Source: Alicyclobacillus sp. ALC3
Lineage (GTDB): Bacteria; Bacillota; Bacilli; Alicyclobacillales; Alicyclobacillaceae
Reading direction: 5' to 3'
Assembly (NCBI RefSeq): GCF_028751195.1
Contig: NZ_CP066784.1
Location: 3,906,001-3,970,000 of the forward strand
Length of the DNA: 64,000 nt
In this document: piece by piece, positions 7,503 to 15,077 of the stretch
Numbering within the stretch: position 1 is the stretch's first letter
Layout of the letters: every line of letters begins with the position of its first letter
Made by a program: the position numbers and the translations under genes
The notes under the pieces: model-generated
Seen by the model: the letters and a program-made list of their open reading frames with translations, nothing else
What the model was told of the DNA's origin: nothing
Databases searched by the model: none

Positions 7503-9011
7503 TCAGCGCACTGCCGCGCCCGTCAGATAGTCGAGCGCACTTGCCGCTACCTGTTCGCCGTGGCGAATGCAGTCTGGGACACCGATGCCGTAATATCCTG
7601 CTCCCGCGATGTATACGCCTGGCGCGGACTGTGCCAGTGCTTGCTCGGCCCGTTCCACCCGCTTGAGGTGTCCCACTTGATATTGCGGCATCGCGTGATT
7701 CCAACGCGTGACCAGCGTGTACTGCGGCTTGGCGTCGAGGTGGAGAAGGGATTTCAACTCAGCTCGCACCGCTTCGACGATGCCCGGGTCGTCGAGTTCC
7801 AGTCCGGATTGCTGCCCAGCCCGTCCGACATAACAGCGGATCACGATATGCCCGTCCGGTGTCGTATGTGGCCACTTGCTCGACAGCCACGTGCTAGCGG
7901 TGATGGCTCGATTCTCCGTGCGAGGCACAAGAAAGCCAGAGGCATCGAGCTCACCTGGCACTTGGTTCTCTCGGTAGACTAAGATCACGGTTGCCGTCGA
8001 AACGTATTCAATCTGAGCAATTTCCGCTGCTGCCTGAGGCGAAATTTGCTTCAGTATCTGTGCGGCGCTCATAGCCGGCGTTGCGCAAATAACCGTGTCC
8101 GCGTGCAGGGTTTCTTGGACACCTTCGCGTATCGTTGAAACACTGTAACTGCCGTCTGGTCGAGCACTCACATCGATCACCGGCGCAAGGGTACGCAGGT
8201 CGGCCCAATCGGCGAGTTCATCGTACAGCCGCTCGATTATGCTCTGCAATCCGTGTCGTACGGTCACAAATGTGCTGCGGCCTGCGGCTGCGCCGATCGG
8301 TGCACTATCGGTTGCGGCCCCACTCGAGGCGGACGCTTGTTTCGCCTTTTCCAGCCGTGCCAATAGGGCTTGGCGCTCGGTTCGCGATCCGATGATGATA
8401 CTGCGGTACTTTCGCTCGAGCTCGAGAAACTGCGGGAACGTCGTCTGGAGGCTGAGGTGGTCGATCGACCCTGCGTAAATTCCAGCTTGCAGAGGTTCAC
8501 AGATGCGTTCGACCACAGCATCGCCCAGTCGACGGCGCAAAAATGCTCCGACCGACTGATCTTTGTCCTGGTGACCTCGGGGCAAAACCATATCCATGAG
8601 CGCGCGGGCTTTCTCAGAACCAGAGAGGAGCTCGGTCTTCATGAACAAGCCGAGGTCTGCAGGGATACCCATATTTGTGCCTGCCGGCATCGGAGTCAGT
8701 TGGCCCCGATAGACCATGTACGTCTTCTGAGCCTTCGGGTTAGGATTTGTACCCACCATTTCGGACTCCAAACCGAGGTCGCGAATCAAGCGCGTCGCAG
8801 CTTCTTTGCGGGCTAGTAAAGAATCGGGTCCGCGTTCGAGAACAAAACCGTCTTGGCGATGGGTGAAAATCTTGCCGCCAAAACGGTCGCCTTGTTCAAG
8901 GACAGTACAGTGAATGGATATATCTCGTGCGTCAGCAAGCTGCTTCAATCGGTAGGCGGCTGTCAGCCCCGTAATCCCGCCGCCGACAATCACGACATCC
9001 TGGCTTTTCAT
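7503..9011 (-). CDS. hemY: Coproporphyrinogen III / protoporphyrinogen oxidase HemY (CgoX)
   Basis: This 502-residue FAD enzyme has the dinucleotide-binding GGGITGLTAAYRL near the N-terminus, followed by the EQGDRFGGKI ribose-binding part. The C-terminal FAD motif is PGVYIAGAGYYGIGVPDCIR. It performs the six-electron oxidation of the porphyrinogen. In Bacillota the physiological substrate is coproporphyrinogen III (coproporphyrin-dependent heme pathway). It is the last gene of the hemE-hemH-hemY operon, and its ATG overlaps the hemH stop (ATGA), which implies translational coupling. Confidence 0.95.
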   Translation of the reverse strand: MKSQDVVIVGGGITGLTAAYRLKQLADARDISIHCTVLEQGDRFGGKIFTHRQDGFVLERGPDSLLARKEAATRLIRDLGLESEMVGTNPNPKAQKTYMVYRGQLTPMPAGTNMGIPADLGLFMKTELLSGSEKARALMDMVLPRGHQDKDQSVGAFLRRRLGDAVVERICEPLQAGIYAGSIDHLSLQTTFPQFLELERKYRSIIIGSRTERQALLARLEKAKQASASSGAATDSAPIGAAAGRSTFVTVRHGLQSIIERLYDELADWADLRTLAPVIDVSARPDGSYSVSTIREGVQETLHADTVICATPAMSAAQILKQISPQAAAEIAQIEYVSTATVILVYRENQVPGELDASGFLVPRTENRAITASTWLSSKWPHTTPDGHIVIRCYVGRAGQQSGLELDDPGIVEAVRAELKSLLHLDAKPQYTLVTRWNHAMPQYQVGHLKRVERAEQALAQSAPGVYIAGAGYYGIGVPDCIRHGEQVAASALDYLTGAAVR

Positions 9012-9976
9012 CGTTCTGTCTCCGCAGCCGTCTCCCGAGACCGCACAACATCTCGCAATACGTCGATGAACGCGGGGTCTGCGTTCAAGTTTTCTGTGCG
9101 AGCCAGCTTGATGCCAAGCTCGTGCGCGAGGGCTTGGGCTTCGATATCGACGTCGTACAGCACTTCAAGGTGGTCTGAGACAAAACCGACGGGGCACAAG
9201 AGCACGTTCTTGCGGCCGTTTGCAGCTAGGTCGCGGAGCACATCAAGAATGTCTGGACCGAGCCATTTGTCCGCCGTCCGCCCAGCACTTTGCCACGCGA
9301 ACATGTACTGCTTGAGATTCAGAGCTTTAGCTACAGCATCGCCGGTGGCGTGCAACTGGTCTTGATATGGGTCGCCAGCTGCAAGGATTTTCTCTGGCAG
9401 GCTGTGAGCAGAGAAGACCACCATCACATCTTCTGCGTTGCCAAAGTCAGTCAAACGGGAGCGCACGCGGTTCGCAATCAACTGTAAAAACTTCACGTTG
9501 TCATACCAGAAGTCCACGTGATAGAGCGCTAAGTTTCCGGCTTCGCGCGCGGCGTCCGAAGCCGCTCGTTGGTATTCGGCCACGCTCCGGGTCGAGTAGT
9601 GTGGAGCGAGCACGAGCGTAACGGCTTCTGCGATACCGTCTTGCGCCATTTGCTGGACTATGTCGCCGATAAACGGGTGGGTGTGTTTCATCCCTAGATA
9701 AACACGAACCGGTCGACCGCCATCAGCGTTGAGAGCGGTCTCGAGTCCACGGGCCTCCGCTTCGGTAATGGCGTTGAGCGGAGACAGGCCGCCAATCGCC
9801 TGGTAACGCCGGAGCAAATCATCTAGAAGTTCCTTCGTCGGAGGGTGGCCGTGTCGAATGTGCGTGTAGTAGGCCTCGACTTCGTCGACTTGACGCGGGG
9901 TGCCGTACGCCATGAGTAAGATGCCAAGCGGTGCCTGTTCAAGTGGGGTATCGGTTGACGATGGTACTTGTGTCAA
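9008..9976 (-). CDS. hemH: Coproporphyrin ferrochelatase HemH (CpfC)
   Basis: This 322-residue ferrochelatase inserts Fe(II) into coproporphyrin III (or protoporphyrin). The catalytic-site landmarks are present: ILLMAYGTPRQVDEVEAYYTH near the N-terminus, FSAHSLPEKI with the metal-site His, and GFVSDHLEVLYD with the acidic partner. No C-terminal Fe-S cysteine cluster is seen, as is usual for the soluble Bacillus type. The start is a TTG (9976) behind AAGGAGG. It lies 21 bases after hemE and overlaps hemY by four bases. Confidence 0.95.
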   Translation of the reverse strand: MTQVPSSTDTPLEQAPLGILLMAYGTPRQVDEVEAYYTHIRHGHPPTKELLDDLLRRYQAIGGLSPLNAITEAEARGLETALNADGGRPVRVYLGMKHTHPFIGDIVQQMAQDGIAEAVTLVLAPHYSTRSVAEYQRAASDAAREAGNLALYHVDFWYDNVKFLQLIANRVRSRLTDFGNAEDVMVVFSAHSLPEKILAAGDPYQDQLHATGDAVAKALNLKQYMFAWQSAGRTADKWLGPDILDVLRDLAANGRKNVLLCPVGFVSDHLEVLYDVDIEAQALAHELGIKLARTENLNADPAFIDVLRDVVRSRETAAETER

Positions 9977-9997
9977 GCTAGTTCCTCCTTACCATGC

Positions 9998-11062
9998 CTA
10001 AAACTTGGCGACAGACTGCGCAATGCACTCGCTGCTGTAGGCGTGGACAAAGTCGGTTAATTGCCGCAATATAGCGGTCTCAATCGGCGGATTGTTGTGA
10101 ACAACCCCGTGACCGAGGTTGAAGATGAAACCCGGTGCCGCAAGTCCCGCATCGACGATGGCACGTGCTCTAGGTAGAATGGCTGACCAAGGGGCAAACA
10201 GCATCGCAGGGTCGAGATTGCCCTGGATCGCGATATTTGAACCGAGTCTCGCGCGCGCAGACTCGATTGGAACGCGCCAGTCAATGCTGACAACTGTCGC
10301 TCCAGTTTTAGCAATGAGAGGCAACAGTTCGCCTGTGACGACGCCAGAGTAAATGAGTGGAACACCGTGCGGCTCTAAAGCTGCGAATACGCGTTGAATC
10401 ACCGGCAGCACAAAAGTTTCGAAATCCTCAGGGGCGAGGCTGCCAACCCAACTGTCAAACAACTGCACGGCGCGCGCGCCAGCGTCGATTTGTGCTGTTA
10501 GATACGATATTGTCATATCCGCGAGCTTGTCCATCAGCGACTGCCAAACGTCGGGCTCACTCCACATCAGTTGCTTGGTGCGAACGTAATTTCGGGAAGG
10601 TCCACCTTCCACTAGGTAACTGGCCAGTGTGAAAGGCCCACCTGTAAAGCCGATCAGCGGCACCTTCAAATCCCGATGCAACATCTGAATGGTGTCAAAG
10701 ACATAGGGAAGTTCAGCAACGGGATCGTACAGATGTAAGCGGTCGACGTCGCTCTGTGACCGGATCGGTGACTCAATGACAGGGCCAACGGCCTCTTTGA
10801 TGTCAAATTGTACCCCGAGCGGCCCAACCGGAACCATGATGTCTGAGAACAGAATGGCAGCGTCCACGTTAAGCTGTTCGACAGGAAGCATGGTGACCTC
10901 TTTGCACACTTCTGGGTGACGGACAATATCCAGCAAGGAGTAACGCTCGCGAATCTTGCGGTATTCAGGCTGGTAGCGCCCAGCCTGGCGCATGTACCAG
11001 ACCGGCAGACGGTCGACAGGACGGCGCCAGCAGGCGTCGAGAAAACGCGTATTTTCCAGCAT
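9998..11062 (-). CDS. hemE: Uroporphyrinogen III decarboxylase HemE
   Basis: This roughly 354-residue enzyme converts uroporphyrinogen III to coproporphyrinogen III by four decarboxylations. The classic N-terminal signature (RLPVWYMRQAGRYQPEYR) is intact, as are the ILFSDIMVPVGPLGV and GHGVVHNNPP regions. ATG 11062 has GAGAGGG upstream and gives the usual family length; a longer in-frame start at 11125 would add 21 atypical residues. First gene of the heme operon. Confidence 0.95.
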   Translation of the reverse strand: MLENTRFLDACWRRPVDRLPVWYMRQAGRYQPEYRKIRERYSLLDIVRHPEVCKEVTMLPVEQLNVDAAILFSDIMVPVGPLGVQFDIKEAVGPVIESPIRSQSDVDRLHLYDPVAELPYVFDTIQMLHRDLKVPLIGFTGGPFTLASYLVEGGPSRNYVRTKQLMWSEPDVWQSLMDKLADMTISYLTAQIDAGARAVQLFDSWVGSLAPEDFETFVLPVIQRVFAALEPHGVPLIYSGVVTGELLPLIAKTGATVVSIDWRVPIESARARLGSNIAIQGNLDPAMLFAPWSAILPRARAIVDAGLAAPGFIFNLGHGVVHNNPPIETAILRQLTDFVHAYSSECIAQSVAKF

Positions 11063-11226
11063 GAACACCCTCTCTTCCGACAATGAGTCCAGGTTAGTTA
11101 TACCGTGCCAACGCGGGGGATGCAACCGCCTCCCAGATCTTGACCGTCAGGGGTATAATAGTACTGTCTGAACTCGGTTGTATCAGTCGGCTTCAGCCAA
11201 CTGACGACCACCAGGGGGGTATTTCC
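11063..11226. other. Divergent intergenic region hemE / bacilliredoxin
   Basis: A -10-like TATAAT lies on the plus strand at 11154-11159, and TATTAT can be read from the same bases on the minus strand. No well-spaced -35 was found for either. It should contain both divergent promoters; no riboswitch or clear operator was recognised. Confidence 0.4.
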
Positions 11227-11655
11227 ATGAGTCTTGAACTCGACTTCTACGCCATGATGATTCAACCCATGCGCGATGAACTCACTGAAATCGGCTTCCA
11301 AGAGTTGAAAAGCTCGGAAGCAGTCGACGAAGCACTTCAGAACAAGCCAGGTACGACACTCGTGTTTGTGAACTCCGTCTGCGGATGTGCTGGCGGCATC
11401 GCTCGTCCGGCTGCTGCGTTGGCACTTGATCACGACGTGCGTCCCGACCACTTGGTCACTGTGTTCGCTGGCCAGGATAAAGATGCAACGGCTCGCGCCC
11501 GCGAGTACTTTGAAGGCAACCCACCGTCTTCGCCGTCAGTTTGGCTGATGAAGGACGGCAAGCTCGTGTCGATGTTGCACCGCAGCGACATTGAAGGCAC
11601 CAACGCCCAGCACGTCGCTTCGCGTCTGCAAGAGATGTTTGACGAATACTGCTGA
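11227..11655 (+). CDS. Bacilliredoxin (BrxA/BrxB, YphP/YqiW family)
   Basis: This 142-residue thioredoxin-like protein has the diagnostic Cys-Gly-Cys redox motif at 52-54 (FVNSVCGCAGG). Bacilliredoxins remove bacillithiol from S-bacillithiolated proteins in low-GC Gram-positive bacteria, so the organism probably makes bacillithiol. The family-typical Pro-rich start (DFYAMMIQPMRDELT) and end (LQEMFDEYC) are present. The start ATG has AGGGGGG upstream. It is a single gene with its own terminator; the divergent hemE operon may share the control region. Confidence 0.93.
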   Translation: MSLELDFYAMMIQPMRDELTEIGFQELKSSEAVDEALQNKPGTTLVFVNSVCGCAGGIARPAAALALDHDVRPDHLVTVFAGQDKDATARAREYFEGNPPSSPSVWLMKDGKLVSMLHRSDIEGTNAQHVASRLQEMFDEYC

Positions 11656-11766: not shown

Positions 11767-11798
11767 TTGCGCCCTATCTTGCGGTTAGTGTACACTAA
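11767..11798 (+). promoter_or_regulatory. Candidate promoter and 14-bp palindromic operator of the Nramp-like gene
   Basis: TTAGTGTACACTAA at 11785-11798 is a perfect palindrome. It overlaps a plausible -10 (TACACT, 11791-11796), with TTGCGC 18 bases upstream as -35. TTAG/CTAA arms are common in DtxR-family operators, and a DtxR-family gene lies 2.6 kb downstream. The link is inference. Confidence 0.5.
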
Positions 11799-11814
11799 TT
11801 CAGCGATTTAGCAC

Positions 11815-13125
11815 GTGAAGTTGGACTTGATGAGGCGAAGAGTCCAGCAAGGCGGGGTGACAAGCAGATTGGAAGCTTCGGATCAAATCGGTCTGCCAAC
11901 CACGCCGTTGCGACGGTTGTTGAGTGTCTTTGCTATCTTCGGACCCGGCATCATTGTGATGTTGGCGAACACAGACGCCGGGTGCATCATCACCGCTGCG
12001 CAGTCGGGGGCAGAGTGGGGCTACGCGATGGTGTTGCCGCAACTGCTTCTCATCCCGATTGTCTACGTGGTTCAGGAAATTACGGTCCGGCTTGGCATTG
12101 CGACCGGGAAGGGTCACGGCGATTTGATCCGTGACCGCTTCGGGACGAAGTGGGCGTATTTTTCGGTGACGACGCTGTTTCTTTCTGCCGTGGGCGCACT
12201 GGTCACGGAGTTTGCCGGCATCGCCGGTGTCGGGGAACTGTTCAACATCTCGCCGCGTTACAGTGTCTCACTCGCCACTGTCTTCTTGATTGCACTGGGT
12301 TTTACGGGCAGCTACAAGCGCGTCGAGCGTATCGGCATCGCACTTGGACTATTTGAGCTCTTGCTGATTCCGGGTGCCATTCTTGCTCACCCGAAAGGAC
12401 AAGCTGTGTGGGCAGGATTACAGACGATTCCGCTGCACAACGCATCTTACGTATACTTGCTTGCTGCCAACGTTGGCGCGGTGATTATGCCGTGGATGAT
12501 CTTCTACCAACAATCTGCTGTTGTTGACCGCGGACTGCAACGCAAAGACCTGCGGGCAGCTCGATTAGACACGGCAGTCGGTTCAGTCCTGACACAAGTG
12601 GTGATGATTGCGGTCGTGGTGATGATTGCGGCCACCGTAGGAACAGTGAACCCGAGCCAAGCGCTGAATAACGTGCCACAGATTGCGAACGGTCTGGTCC
12701 CTTTCCTGGGCCGGAGCGGAGCAAAGGTGATTTTCGGGCTCGGCATGCTCGGGGCGAGTTTCGTTGCGGCATTAGTGGTCTCGCTGGCAGGGGCGTGGGG
12801 CATTGGCGAAGTCGTTGGGTTTCAGCACAGCGTGAACAGCAGAGTTCGCGATGCCAAGTGGTTTTACCTCATCTACACTCTAGTCCACATCGGTGGCGCC
12901 GCCCTGGTGTTTAGTGGTATGAATCTGGTCAATTTGTCTGTCGATACAGAAGTCATGAACGCGCTTCTGCTTCCAGTTGTCCTCGGGTTCTTACTCCTGC
13001 TCGAGTCGAGGGTGCTGCCTGTCGAATGGAGAATGCGGGGTTTCAACAAAGCTCTCGTTTGGTCGCTCTCCTTCATCGTCATGGCCTTTGGCGGTTACAT
13101 GGCGTTTCGCTTGGTCGCTGCGTGA
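11815..13125 (+). CDS. Nramp-related divalent metal transporter with altered metal-site motifs
   Basis: This roughly 436-residue, 11-12 helix protein belongs to the SLC11/Nramp superfamily. The helix-1 metal site is ANTDAGC at about 51-57, where canonical Mn/Fe transporters have Asp-Pro-Gly-Asn: the Asp is kept, Pro becomes Ala and Asn becomes Cys. The helix-6 site reads Met-Pro-Trp at about 225-227, where the classical motif is Met-Pro-His. Such departures are seen in the Nramp-related Mg2+/Mn2+ transporter branch (NRMT). The start is uncertain (GTG 11815, ATG 11830); neither has a strong ribosome site. It sits behind a palindromic operator, so metal-responsive control is plausible. Confidence 0.8.
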   Translation: MKLDLMRRRVQQGGVTSRLEASDQIGLPTTPLRRLLSVFAIFGPGIIVMLANTDAGCIITAAQSGAEWGYAMVLPQLLLIPIVYVVQEITVRLGIATGKGHGDLIRDRFGTKWAYFSVTTLFLSAVGALVTEFAGIAGVGELFNISPRYSVSLATVFLIALGFTGSYKRVERIGIALGLFELLLIPGAILAHPKGQAVWAGLQTIPLHNASYVYLLAANVGAVIMPWMIFYQQSAVVDRGLQRKDLRAARLDTAVGSVLTQVVMIAVVVMIAATVGTVNPSQALNNVPQIANGLVPFLGRSGAKVIFGLGMLGASFVAALVVSLAGAWGIGEVVGFQHSVNSRVRDAKWFYLIYTLVHIGGAALVFSGMNLVNLSVDTEVMNALLLPVVLGFLLLLESRVLPVEWRMRGFNKALVWSLSFIVMAFGGYMAFRLVAA

Positions 13126-13170
13126 AGCAAGTGTGCGGGACATAGCCTGCTAGCCTCAGAGAATCAGCGA

Positions 13171-14346
13171 ATGTGTGCTTCACAGACTTTCCTATCGTTG
13201 TTCGGGAATACTTCTGCTATGTGGAGAACAGTCTGGGGCGCAATTGTGCGCGTAAGCTACATCTGGAAAGTTGCTCTGGCGGCTGGCCTGTCTTGGAACG
13301 TCGCAGAGTGGGGCGGCCTGAAACACCCGTATTTTGCGCCACTAGCGGCCATTTTGTGTCTGCAGGTGACGGTCACAGCGTCTGTGCGGCGCAGTGTTGA
13401 GCGGGTGGTAGGCATTGTCGGGGGCGTAATTTTGGCGGATGTCACGGCGAGCGCCCTTGGCCTGCACGGGTGGAGCATTGCGCTGTTGGTCTTGGCTGGG
13501 TTGACCGGGGCACGGCTGCTCCATCTTCAGCGAACCGCCGTACCGCAGGTCGCGGTGAGCGCGCTGATGGTGCTCTCGTCGGGGTCTCATCACCTTGGGT
13601 ACTCGTTCGATCGCGTGATCAACACATTCATCGGCGCCCTCATTGCGCTATTGGTGAGCCTGTTGATTTTGCCCCCGGACTATTCATCGCAGGCGACCCG
13701 TGCTGTGAAGACAGCGGGAGTAGCCCTAGCTCGCCGTTTTACGGACATCGCAGAGTGGTTACGGAGTGGAGCGTCGCTCACATCTGGACGCGAACTGCAA
13801 AGGGACACTCAAGCTTACCTCGAGACGTTGCACCAAGCCACGGCAGAAGGCGAACTGGCTCTCGCCGAGGTGTCTTACAGTTGGCTTGCCCGTCGCCGAC
13901 AGTCAAAGCTGGCGGGACTCCACACGGAACTGCTGCGGTTGCGTCAGGGACATGCGCACGCTGCCGGCGTTTTGCGCTCTTTGCTTGAATGGGAGGAGGC
14001 GACTGGAGGCATCGCAGGGCAAGTTCGCGAGCGCTGGGCAGAGCACTTCTGCGCTGCGAGTGATGCAGTCTTGACGTGGGCAAACACAGTCGTTGGTGCT
14101 TCGGGGACGGCTTCCACCGCAGTTGACTCGAGCGGCGACGGTTGCCAGGACGCCAACCCGCTAGAGAAGTTTGCTCAGCGTCACAGATGGCTTTTTGACC
14201 ATGACGCAAAGGACTTTGTGGCCTTCTATGAAGGAGCGCTTTGGAACGACCTTCGCCAACTGATGGAGGAACTGCGTCAGCCCACCGAACGAGGGAATGC
14301 CAGTGCTGCCAAGTCCGAATCTGTTTTTGGTGAACGTGGCCAATAG
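13171..14346 (+). CDS. FUSC / aromatic-acid-exporter-like membrane protein
   Basis: This 391-residue protein has an N-terminal block of about six hydrophobic segments (roughly residues 30-170) containing LKHPYFAPLAAILCLQVTV and ERVVGIVGGVILADV. Both are typical of FUSC-family proteins (PF13515 and relatives). A long soluble, probably helical C-terminal half follows. Family members are proposed exporters of aromatic acids or toxic metabolites. The start could instead be ATG 13219. It lies 45 bases after the Nramp-like gene and may be co-transcribed with it. Function is by similarity only. Confidence 0.65.
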   Translation: MCASQTFLSLFGNTSAMWRTVWGAIVRVSYIWKVALAAGLSWNVAEWGGLKHPYFAPLAAILCLQVTVTASVRRSVERVVGIVGGVILADVTASALGLHGWSIALLVLAGLTGARLLHLQRTAVPQVAVSALMVLSSGSHHLGYSFDRVINTFIGALIALLVSLLILPPDYSSQATRAVKTAGVALARRFTDIAEWLRSGASLTSGRELQRDTQAYLETLHQATAEGELALAEVSYSWLARRRQSKLAGLHTELLRLRQGHAHAAGVLRSLLEWEEATGGIAGQVRERWAEHFCAASDAVLTWANTVVGASGTASTAVDSSGDGCQDANPLEKFAQRHRWLFDHDAKDFVAFYEGALWNDLRQLMEELRQPTERGNASAAKSESVFGERGQ

Positions 14347-14411
14347 CGGCCTATGCTACAATAGATTGATGAGAGAGACCCGAGTGGCGGGCAGGAGAGG
14401 AGAACGCGGGT

Positions 14412-15077
14412 ATGCCGAGAACACACGGCATAGATGAGTACCTGGAGGCCATCTATGTTCTGGATGCCGAAGGAGATGTCGTATTGCCGTCACGGTTGGC
14501 AGACTATCTGGATGTTGCGCGACCGACTGTAACGCAGACGGTGCAGCGGATGACGGCATCCGGCTTTGTTGGCACTGGCGAAGGCCGTTCTATCGTGCTG
14601 ACCGACGAAGGCCGTCGCAAAGCTGAACAGATGGTGCGCAGACACCGCCTGTTGGAGCGCTGGCTGACCGACGAACTTGGGCTCGACTGGGCAGACGCAC
14701 ACGTTGAAGCTGGGAGACTTGAACACGCCATCTCTCCAGAGGTGGAGGAGCGCCTAGCTGAACGGCTCGGGTATCCGACAACTTGTCCGCACGGCAACGT
14801 CATTCCAGGTTCAGGGGCCAAGCAAGTCTCCGGCCGCCCGCTGTCTGGCATGGAAGGCGGGCAGTCTGTGACGGTCGTTCGAATCGTCGAACAGGCCGAA
14901 GAGGACCTCGATTTCCTCCGCTTTCTGCATACTGCAGGCATTGTTCCAGGTGCCAAAGTTGTTCTTTCGAAACCTGCAAGTCCATATGAAGCAGGTGTGC
15001 CGATTGAGGTGGACGGAGCATCCTACTCGCTGGACGAGTCGGTTGCAAAGCGCATTCTGGTGACCCCAAACGCCTGA
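14412..15077 (+). CDS. DtxR-family metal-dependent transcriptional regulator (three-domain)
   Basis: This 221-residue regulator has an N-terminal winged helix (about 1-65), a metal-binding/dimerisation region (about 66-130) and a C-terminal SH3/FeoA-like domain (about 150-221). It is therefore longer than Bacillus MntR (about 142 residues). Likely metal ligands are Glu12, His78, Glu104 and His105. The residue equivalent to MntR Glu99 or DtxR Cys102 appears to be Gly101 (EAGRLEH), which could change metal preference. GAGAGGAG precedes the ATG. Its targets are probably nearby metal transporters, notably the Nramp-like gene upstream, but no operator copy was seen in front of itself. Confidence 0.88.
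   Translation: MPRTHGIDEYLEAIYVLDAEGDVVLPSRLADYLDVARPTVTQTVQRMTASGFVGTGEGRSIVLTDEGRRKAEQMVRRHRLLERWLTDELGLDWADAHVEAGRLEHAISPEVEERLAERLGYPTTCPHGNVIPGSGAKQVSGRPLSGMEGGQSVTVVRIVEQAEEDLDFLRFLHTAGIVPGAKVVLSKPASPYEAGVPIEVDGASYSLDESVAKRILVTPNA

Follow-up and report, generated by a model that had tools for sequence, protein, structure and literature searches.

The described systems closest to the locus studied here are the canonical Nramp/MntH transporters (DraNramp, ScaDMT, BfraNramp), the NRMTs, represented by the Mg2+/Mn2+ transporter EleNRMT (7qia), and YcsG/MntG of B. subtilis, an Nramp-related protein reported as a Mn2+ importer under MntR (PMC10448178). Nramp-related groups other than the NRMT-like and MntG groups are called 'entirely uncharacterized' in one account (PMC12873925). 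On the side of regulation, the 14-bp single-dimer site of IdeR is given as TTAGGNNNNCCTAA and its two-dimer site as TTAGGTTAGSCTAACCTAA (PMC8464063), while MtsR is described as having a reworked site 2 and as sensing primarily through site 1, which binds Mn (PMC9253540). Here we analyzed an Nramp-related transporter gene, a gene for a DtxR/IdeR-like metalloregulator and a 14-bp palindrome, TTAGTGTACACTAA, in a 64,000-nucleotide stretch of the genome of Alicyclobacillus sp. ALC3 (contig NZ_CP066784.1, positions 3,906,001 to 3,970,000; the whole stretch is called the window). The transporter, a member of an uncharacterised SLC11 clade, probably imports Fe(II) under iron-dependent repression by the IdeR-like protein. 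In the open-access literature searched, no paper was found that deals with the transporter clade or with control of an Nramp-related transporter by IdeR.

With a PF01566 score of 223.7 bits at a cut-off of 29.8, the transporter belongs to the SLC11/Nramp superfamily. An earlier note on this DNA had reported Asp-Ala-Gly-Cys instead of Asp-Pro-Gly-Asn and Met-Pro-Trp instead of Met-Pro-His, and both replacements are confirmed in the translation of the open reading frame (ORF). As signatures we applied DxxN on transmembrane helix 1 (TM1) plus A/CxxM on TM6 for canonical Nramps, and DxxG on TM1 plus TxxA/T on TM6 for NRMTs. The transporter fits neither of them: AxxM is present but DxxC replaces DxxN, and its DAGC/AVIM combination is not DxxG/TxxA. 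It resembles canonical Nramp/MntH proteins in the AxxM of TM6, the TM3 Glu and the fold, but lacks DPGN as well as the TM6 His (of MPH) and the TM3 proton-path Asp found in proton-coupled Nramps. With NRMTs it shares the D-A-G start of TM1, the Trp after the TM6 Pro and the TM3 Glu, and EleNRMT is its closest solved relative by sequence (2.1e-52), DraNramp following far behind; however, it has Cys or Ser in place of Gly on TM1 and Ala/Met in place of Thr/Ala on TM6. YcsG/MntG can be likened to it by description only, in that it too is Nramp-related without belonging to the canonical groups and has a DtxR-family repressor. A YCSG model was listed in the fold comparison; hmmsearch gave no chain named YcsG among the matches listed. 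The AlphaFold model of the transporter (mean predicted local distance difference test score 89.8) has the LeuT-like SLC11 fold, with TM1 broken at 53-54 and TM6 at 224-225. It matched SLC11 structures with Z of 34-47, EleNRMT and DraNramp being tied as best matches.

The unusual motifs are a property of a whole group. Among 38 relative sequences, a set that includes the window's transporter and one sequence ending at a contig edge, TM1 reads D-A-G-C, D-A-G-S or, in two cases, D-V-G-S; TM6 reads A-V-I-M-P-W, or A-V-I-M-P-F in the same two, and Glu132 of TM3 is invariant. In a wider set of 80 GTDB-species loci plus the window, 80 of the 81 rows have Ser or Cys at the fourth position of TM1 (one is unreadable) and the same 80 have AV[I/V]MPWM on TM6, where the loci had been found by peptide patterns partly fixing these motifs themselves and some are Alicyclobacillus relatives also present in other counts. 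Ortholog records come from Bacillota, Actinomycetota, Pseudomonadota, Bacteroidota, Verrucomicrobiota and others. In a tree of 40 SLC11 proteins 17 members of the group form one clade with a support of 100/100, apart from EleNRMT and from two canonical Nramps. On the evidence of these sequences this is a widespread, fully supported and uncharacterised SLC11 clade.

The window's genome also encodes a canonical MntH and a separate protein with the NRMT signature (DAGG/TTVA). Within the same order we found the site types DPGN/ATIMPH (canonical), DAGG/TT[I/V]APW (NRMT signature), DAGG/NA[I/V]APW and DAPS/AT[V/I]TPW. Among the Nramp-related types seen in the order, only that of the window's transporter keeps the soft Met ligand, a residue absent from Mg-type NRMTs. 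Proteins with DAPS on TM1 and either ATVT or ATIT on TM6 (L327, L329, L330, L332, L342) form a clade with a further unusual site type.

The palindrome TTAGTGTACACTAA is exact, occurs once and lies 16 bp before the listed GTG start, which is itself uncertain, an internal start (e.g. codon 15) being possible. Its size alone is unremarkable, as the window holds three perfect 14-bp palindromes, and the pattern with up to 3 mismatches is about as frequent as in shuffled sequences (1 vs 0.96). It gains significance because it is conserved across genomes. In genomes with a regulator ortholog, exact TTAGN6CTAA was present within 300 bp upstream at 24 of 32 transporter loci, compared with 2 of 7 where no regulator was detected in the genome (Fisher p 0.03, after removal of two loci lacking upstream sequence); control windows of the same loci contained it in 8 of 1904 cases. 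TTAGGN4CCTAA with at most one mismatch lies around the start at 32 of the 80 GTDB loci and in none of 2734 background windows. At 16 of these 80 loci the 19-bp IdeR box was detected with up to 4 mismatches, and an Acidimicrobiaceae ortholog has it exactly, IdeR-box-like sites preceding some actinobacterial orthologs. Compared with the 14-bp IdeR/DtxR operator TTAGGN4CCTAA, the length and the outer TTAG/CTAA are kept, and only these outer bases are required, the inner G/C often being different. The earlier note had placed the palindrome across the transporter promoter; the exact palindrome before the gene stands, the overlap follows from position only, and no sigma-70 consensus promoter was found at the operator site.

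Genes for FTR1/EfeU iron permeases are preceded by the same operator, 28 of 30 loci having an exact copy and all 30 a copy with no more than one mismatch. At transporter and FTR1 promoters a second, weaker site often lies exactly 23 bp off, a spacing shown by 11 of 16 close site pairs at the former and by 21 of 35 at the latter (pairs with both sites exact were counted twice). This common spacing ties transporter and FTR1 genes to one regulator. Pairs of this kind (L300, L301, L298 and other FTR1 promoters; L034, L069, L073) differ from the overlapping two-dimer IdeR box with its 5-bp shift and may represent a distinct cooperative arrangement. The congener G002 has only five operator sites in its genome. 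Four of them are upstream of genes: one each for this transporter, for FTR1, for an extra MntH and for a FecE-like ATPase accompanied by a binding protein of the siderophore type. The same operator precedes a siderophore ATP-binding cassette (ABC) operon. Of canonical mntH loci, only 3 of 30 have the exact operator, each in a genome that carries another mntH as well. Sites or pairs were also seen before a DoxX-family gene (L229, near 5075), a DUF2292 gene (L226, near 4048) and a 143-amino-acid ORF (L057, near 950), which are possible further members of the regulon.

The regulator is a DtxR-family protein, with PF01325 and PF02742 over cut-off plus a FeoA domain, and its nearest relative by sequence is IdeR, with which it shares the domain order. 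Pro38, Thr39 and Gln42, corresponding to the DNA contacts Pro39, Thr40 and Gln43 of IdeR, are invariant in all 32 sequences compared. Gly at the position of MntR Glu99 and DtxR Cys102, as claimed earlier, is confirmed: Gly101 aligns with Cys102 of IdeR/DtxR, and in place of the primary site Met10, Cys102, Glu105 and His106 we found Glu9, Gly101, Glu104 and His105. By itself the glycine, which the earlier note took to bear on metal choice, does not point to a changed metal, since position 101 varies in the clade (G/A/D/E/T) and a second metal site is invariant. Position 9 varies as well (E/Q/A/S/H/R), and His105 is kept in 27 of the 32. Invariant throughout are His78, Glu82, His97, Glu104, Cys125, His127, Glu160 and Glu163. 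Of these, His78, Glu82, His97, Glu160 and Glu163 match what we take to be the ancillary ligands of DtxR/IdeR (His79, Glu83, His98 and a pair in the SH3 domain, Glu and Gln in IdeR), with Gln replaced by Glu. His78, Glu82, Cys125 and His127 also correspond at a constant offset of 2 to site 1 of the streptococcal Mn regulators MtsR/ScaR/SloR (His76, Glu80, Cys123, His125), unlike which the regulator is nearer to IdeR in sequence and has recognisable targets that are mostly iron genes. The Bacillus-type MntR, presumably with Asp8, Glu11, His77, Glu99, Glu102 and His103 as ligands and no FeoA domain, differs from the regulator, which has Gly at position 99 and the FeoA domain. Judged from these alignments, the Gly-containing site is eroding, and the site that is fixed unites ligands of the DtxR ancillary site with the Cys/His pair known from site 1 of MtsR. 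The ligands alone cannot decide between iron and manganese, because the matching site 1 of MtsR binds Mn; the target genes favour iron.

Four genomes of a sister family have the regulator and transporter genes side by side in divergent orientation, with operator sites in between. Synteny was rejected as general evidence, since the two genes are unlinked in most genomes of the window's own family. The earlier proposal that transporter, regulator and palindrome form a functional set is supported by the operator kept before orthologs, by these four divergent pairs and by exact sites being commoner where the regulator is present.

According to the model that we prefer, the transporter would import most likely ferrous iron and probably Mn2+ too, using a metal site formed by Asp54, Met225, the backbone of Ala222, Cys57 (replaced by Ser in most relatives) and possibly Glu132. 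Since it has neither the TM6 His nor the TM3 Asp that proton-coupled Nramps possess, the transporter would probably not couple metal uptake tightly to protons. At adequate cell iron the IdeR-like regulator would bind metal, chiefly at the invariant site 1, and the metal-loaded dimer would directly occupy the 14-bp TTAGN6CTAA operator and shut the transporter gene; the promoters of many relatives would accommodate two dimers at a distance of 23 bp. Within the order the transporter would fill the place of FeoB, which few members keep. More tentatively, the multi-phylum clade (DAG[C/S] or DVGS with AV[I/V]MP) might as a whole be a dedicated iron-box-controlled Fe(II) importer replacing FeoB, with a mixed NRMT/canonical site in which Cys/Ser stands for the conserved Asn, and the IdeR-like sensor might detect iron without DtxR Cys102 through its combined DtxR-ancillary/MtsR-type site 1.

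Of the 59 genomes examined from the order, the transporter clade is present in 43 and FeoB, above cut-off, in 8, with no genome having both and 8 having neither; three of the 43 (G008, G046, G051) were counted from fragments. The chance of zero overlap would be about 6e-6 were the genomes independent, which they are not. The FeoB-bearing genomes of the order are also without other close Nramp-related paralogs at the threshold used, so the exclusion is not specific to this clade. Several observations weigh against an iron-repressed importer in the place of FeoB. According to the regulator tree FeoB may have a single origin in the order, so that the exclusion may be one event, and beyond the order FeoB occurs in 7 of the 37 genomes with the transporter that were examined (from 37 of the 80 named GTDB loci), in 6 of them above cut-off. 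Exclusion as a general rule was rejected on the latter count; replacement of FeoB is a local pattern. The exact operator is missing at 8 of the 32 transporter loci (G040, one of two G044 loci, G025, G004, G019, G029, G015, G017). At feoAB promoters it is weak, with one exact site, five sites with one mismatch and two promoters without any among eight loci in the family, some of these being near-copies from a single genus. The other eight exact sites of the window's genome lie near no gene linkable to iron, and several exact sites in this genome, G036 and G024 fall inside ORFs (site context was examined for 11 of 23 exact sites in G036 and 4 of 6 in G024). The site-1 ligands of the regulator are those of Mn sensors, and the operators on the three extra mntH copies fit Mn too. 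The feoA promoters L238, L239 and L241 share a block like ACAAAAACA...ATCAACTTTT plus a TATAAT-like hexamer between the TTAG-like site and feoA, which may be a promoter with a site for another regulator.

The site-1 ligands and the operators on extra mntH copies are at the same time the core of the main rival explanation, a Mn or mixed Mn/Fe system in which the regulator would sense Mn in the manner of MtsR/ScaR and the transporter would be an additional importer of Mn, a role for which YcsG/MntG offers a precedent. We consider this unlikely but still worth serious attention: the operator is common to FTR1 genes and the siderophore ABC operon and is missing from 27 of 30 canonical mntH loci, full IdeR-type boxes precede some actinobacterial orthologs, and the genome encodes a separate textbook MntR (153 amino acids) with the usual Glu/Glu/His set. 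The operator might also be bound by another factor, the nearby DtxR-like protein not being its regulator. This would agree with the two genes being unlinked in most relatives, with the exact sites persisting at two loci of genomes without detected regulator and with two FUR-family proteins in the window's genome. It is improbable, however, given that the length and outer bases of the operator equal the IdeR single-dimer site, that the DNA-contact residues are conserved and that divergent adjacency with intergenic sites occurs in four genomes.

Least probable is a Mg-responsive pair, a possibility raised by the earlier note, with an NRMT-like transporter and a Mg-responsive regulator. The nearest solved structure is indeed that of a Mg transporter, EleNRMT, and the loss of the TM1 Asn and the change of the TM6 His to Trp are as in NRMTs. 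The Mg reading rather fits a different paralog of the same genome, because the NRMT signature is found there while this transporter type keeps Met225 in its DxxC/AxxM site. The M-box riboswitch, a trait of the original NrmT group, was not found upstream of the transporter, as no Rfam family matched at gathering score between 10000 and 17000. Together with operator targets that are mostly iron-uptake genes, these points led us to reject the Mg/NRMT reading.

The features of the locus are listed in the table. The earlier note had missed the third gene, for an ArAE/FUSC-family protein, that separates transporter and regulator; in two further genomes the regulator gene likewise has a FUSC-family relative next to it. 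Judged by this transporter, Alicyclobacillus species are the nearest named relatives. Just upstream lie genes for ferrochelatase, uroporphyrinogen decarboxylase and an amine-oxidase-family protein, likely protoporphyrinogen oxidase (7503-11125, minus strand), separated from the transporter by a disulphide-isomerase-family gene (11140-11655). This heme-gene neighbourhood was rejected as a functional hint, being present at 0 of 40 relative loci.

Table. Features of the transporter-regulator locus, numbered from the first nucleotide of the window.
Feature	Position	Strand	Remarks
Operator TTAGTGTACACTAA, IdeR-like single-dimer site	11785-11798	.	Exact palindrome; kept before orthologs and FTR1 genes
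Possible degenerate second site	11808-11821	+	Lone TTAG 23 bp downstream, the spacing of relatives; suggestive only
Transporter ORF	11815-13125	+	SLC11 (Nramp-related); PF01566, orthologs, structure model
TM1 metal-site motif D54-A-G-C57	11974-11985	+	In transporter
TM6 metal-site motif A222-V-I-M225-P-W227	12478-12495	+	In transporter
ArAE/FUSC-family membrane protein gene	13171-14346	+	Between transporter and regulator genes
DtxR/IdeR-like metalloregulator ORF	14412-15077	+	Fe_dep_repress, Fe_dep_repr_C and C-terminal FeoA domain
Gly101 codon (DtxR Cys102 / MntR Glu99 position)	14712-14714	+	In regulator

If the proposed function is true, a widespread Nramp-related group gains a testable substrate and a regulator. 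A natural site in which Met is kept and Asn is changed to Cys or Ser bears on the question of which SLC11 residues separate Fe/Mn from Mg. An iron-repressed importer of this type would also help to explain ferrous iron uptake in these FeoB-less Bacillota.

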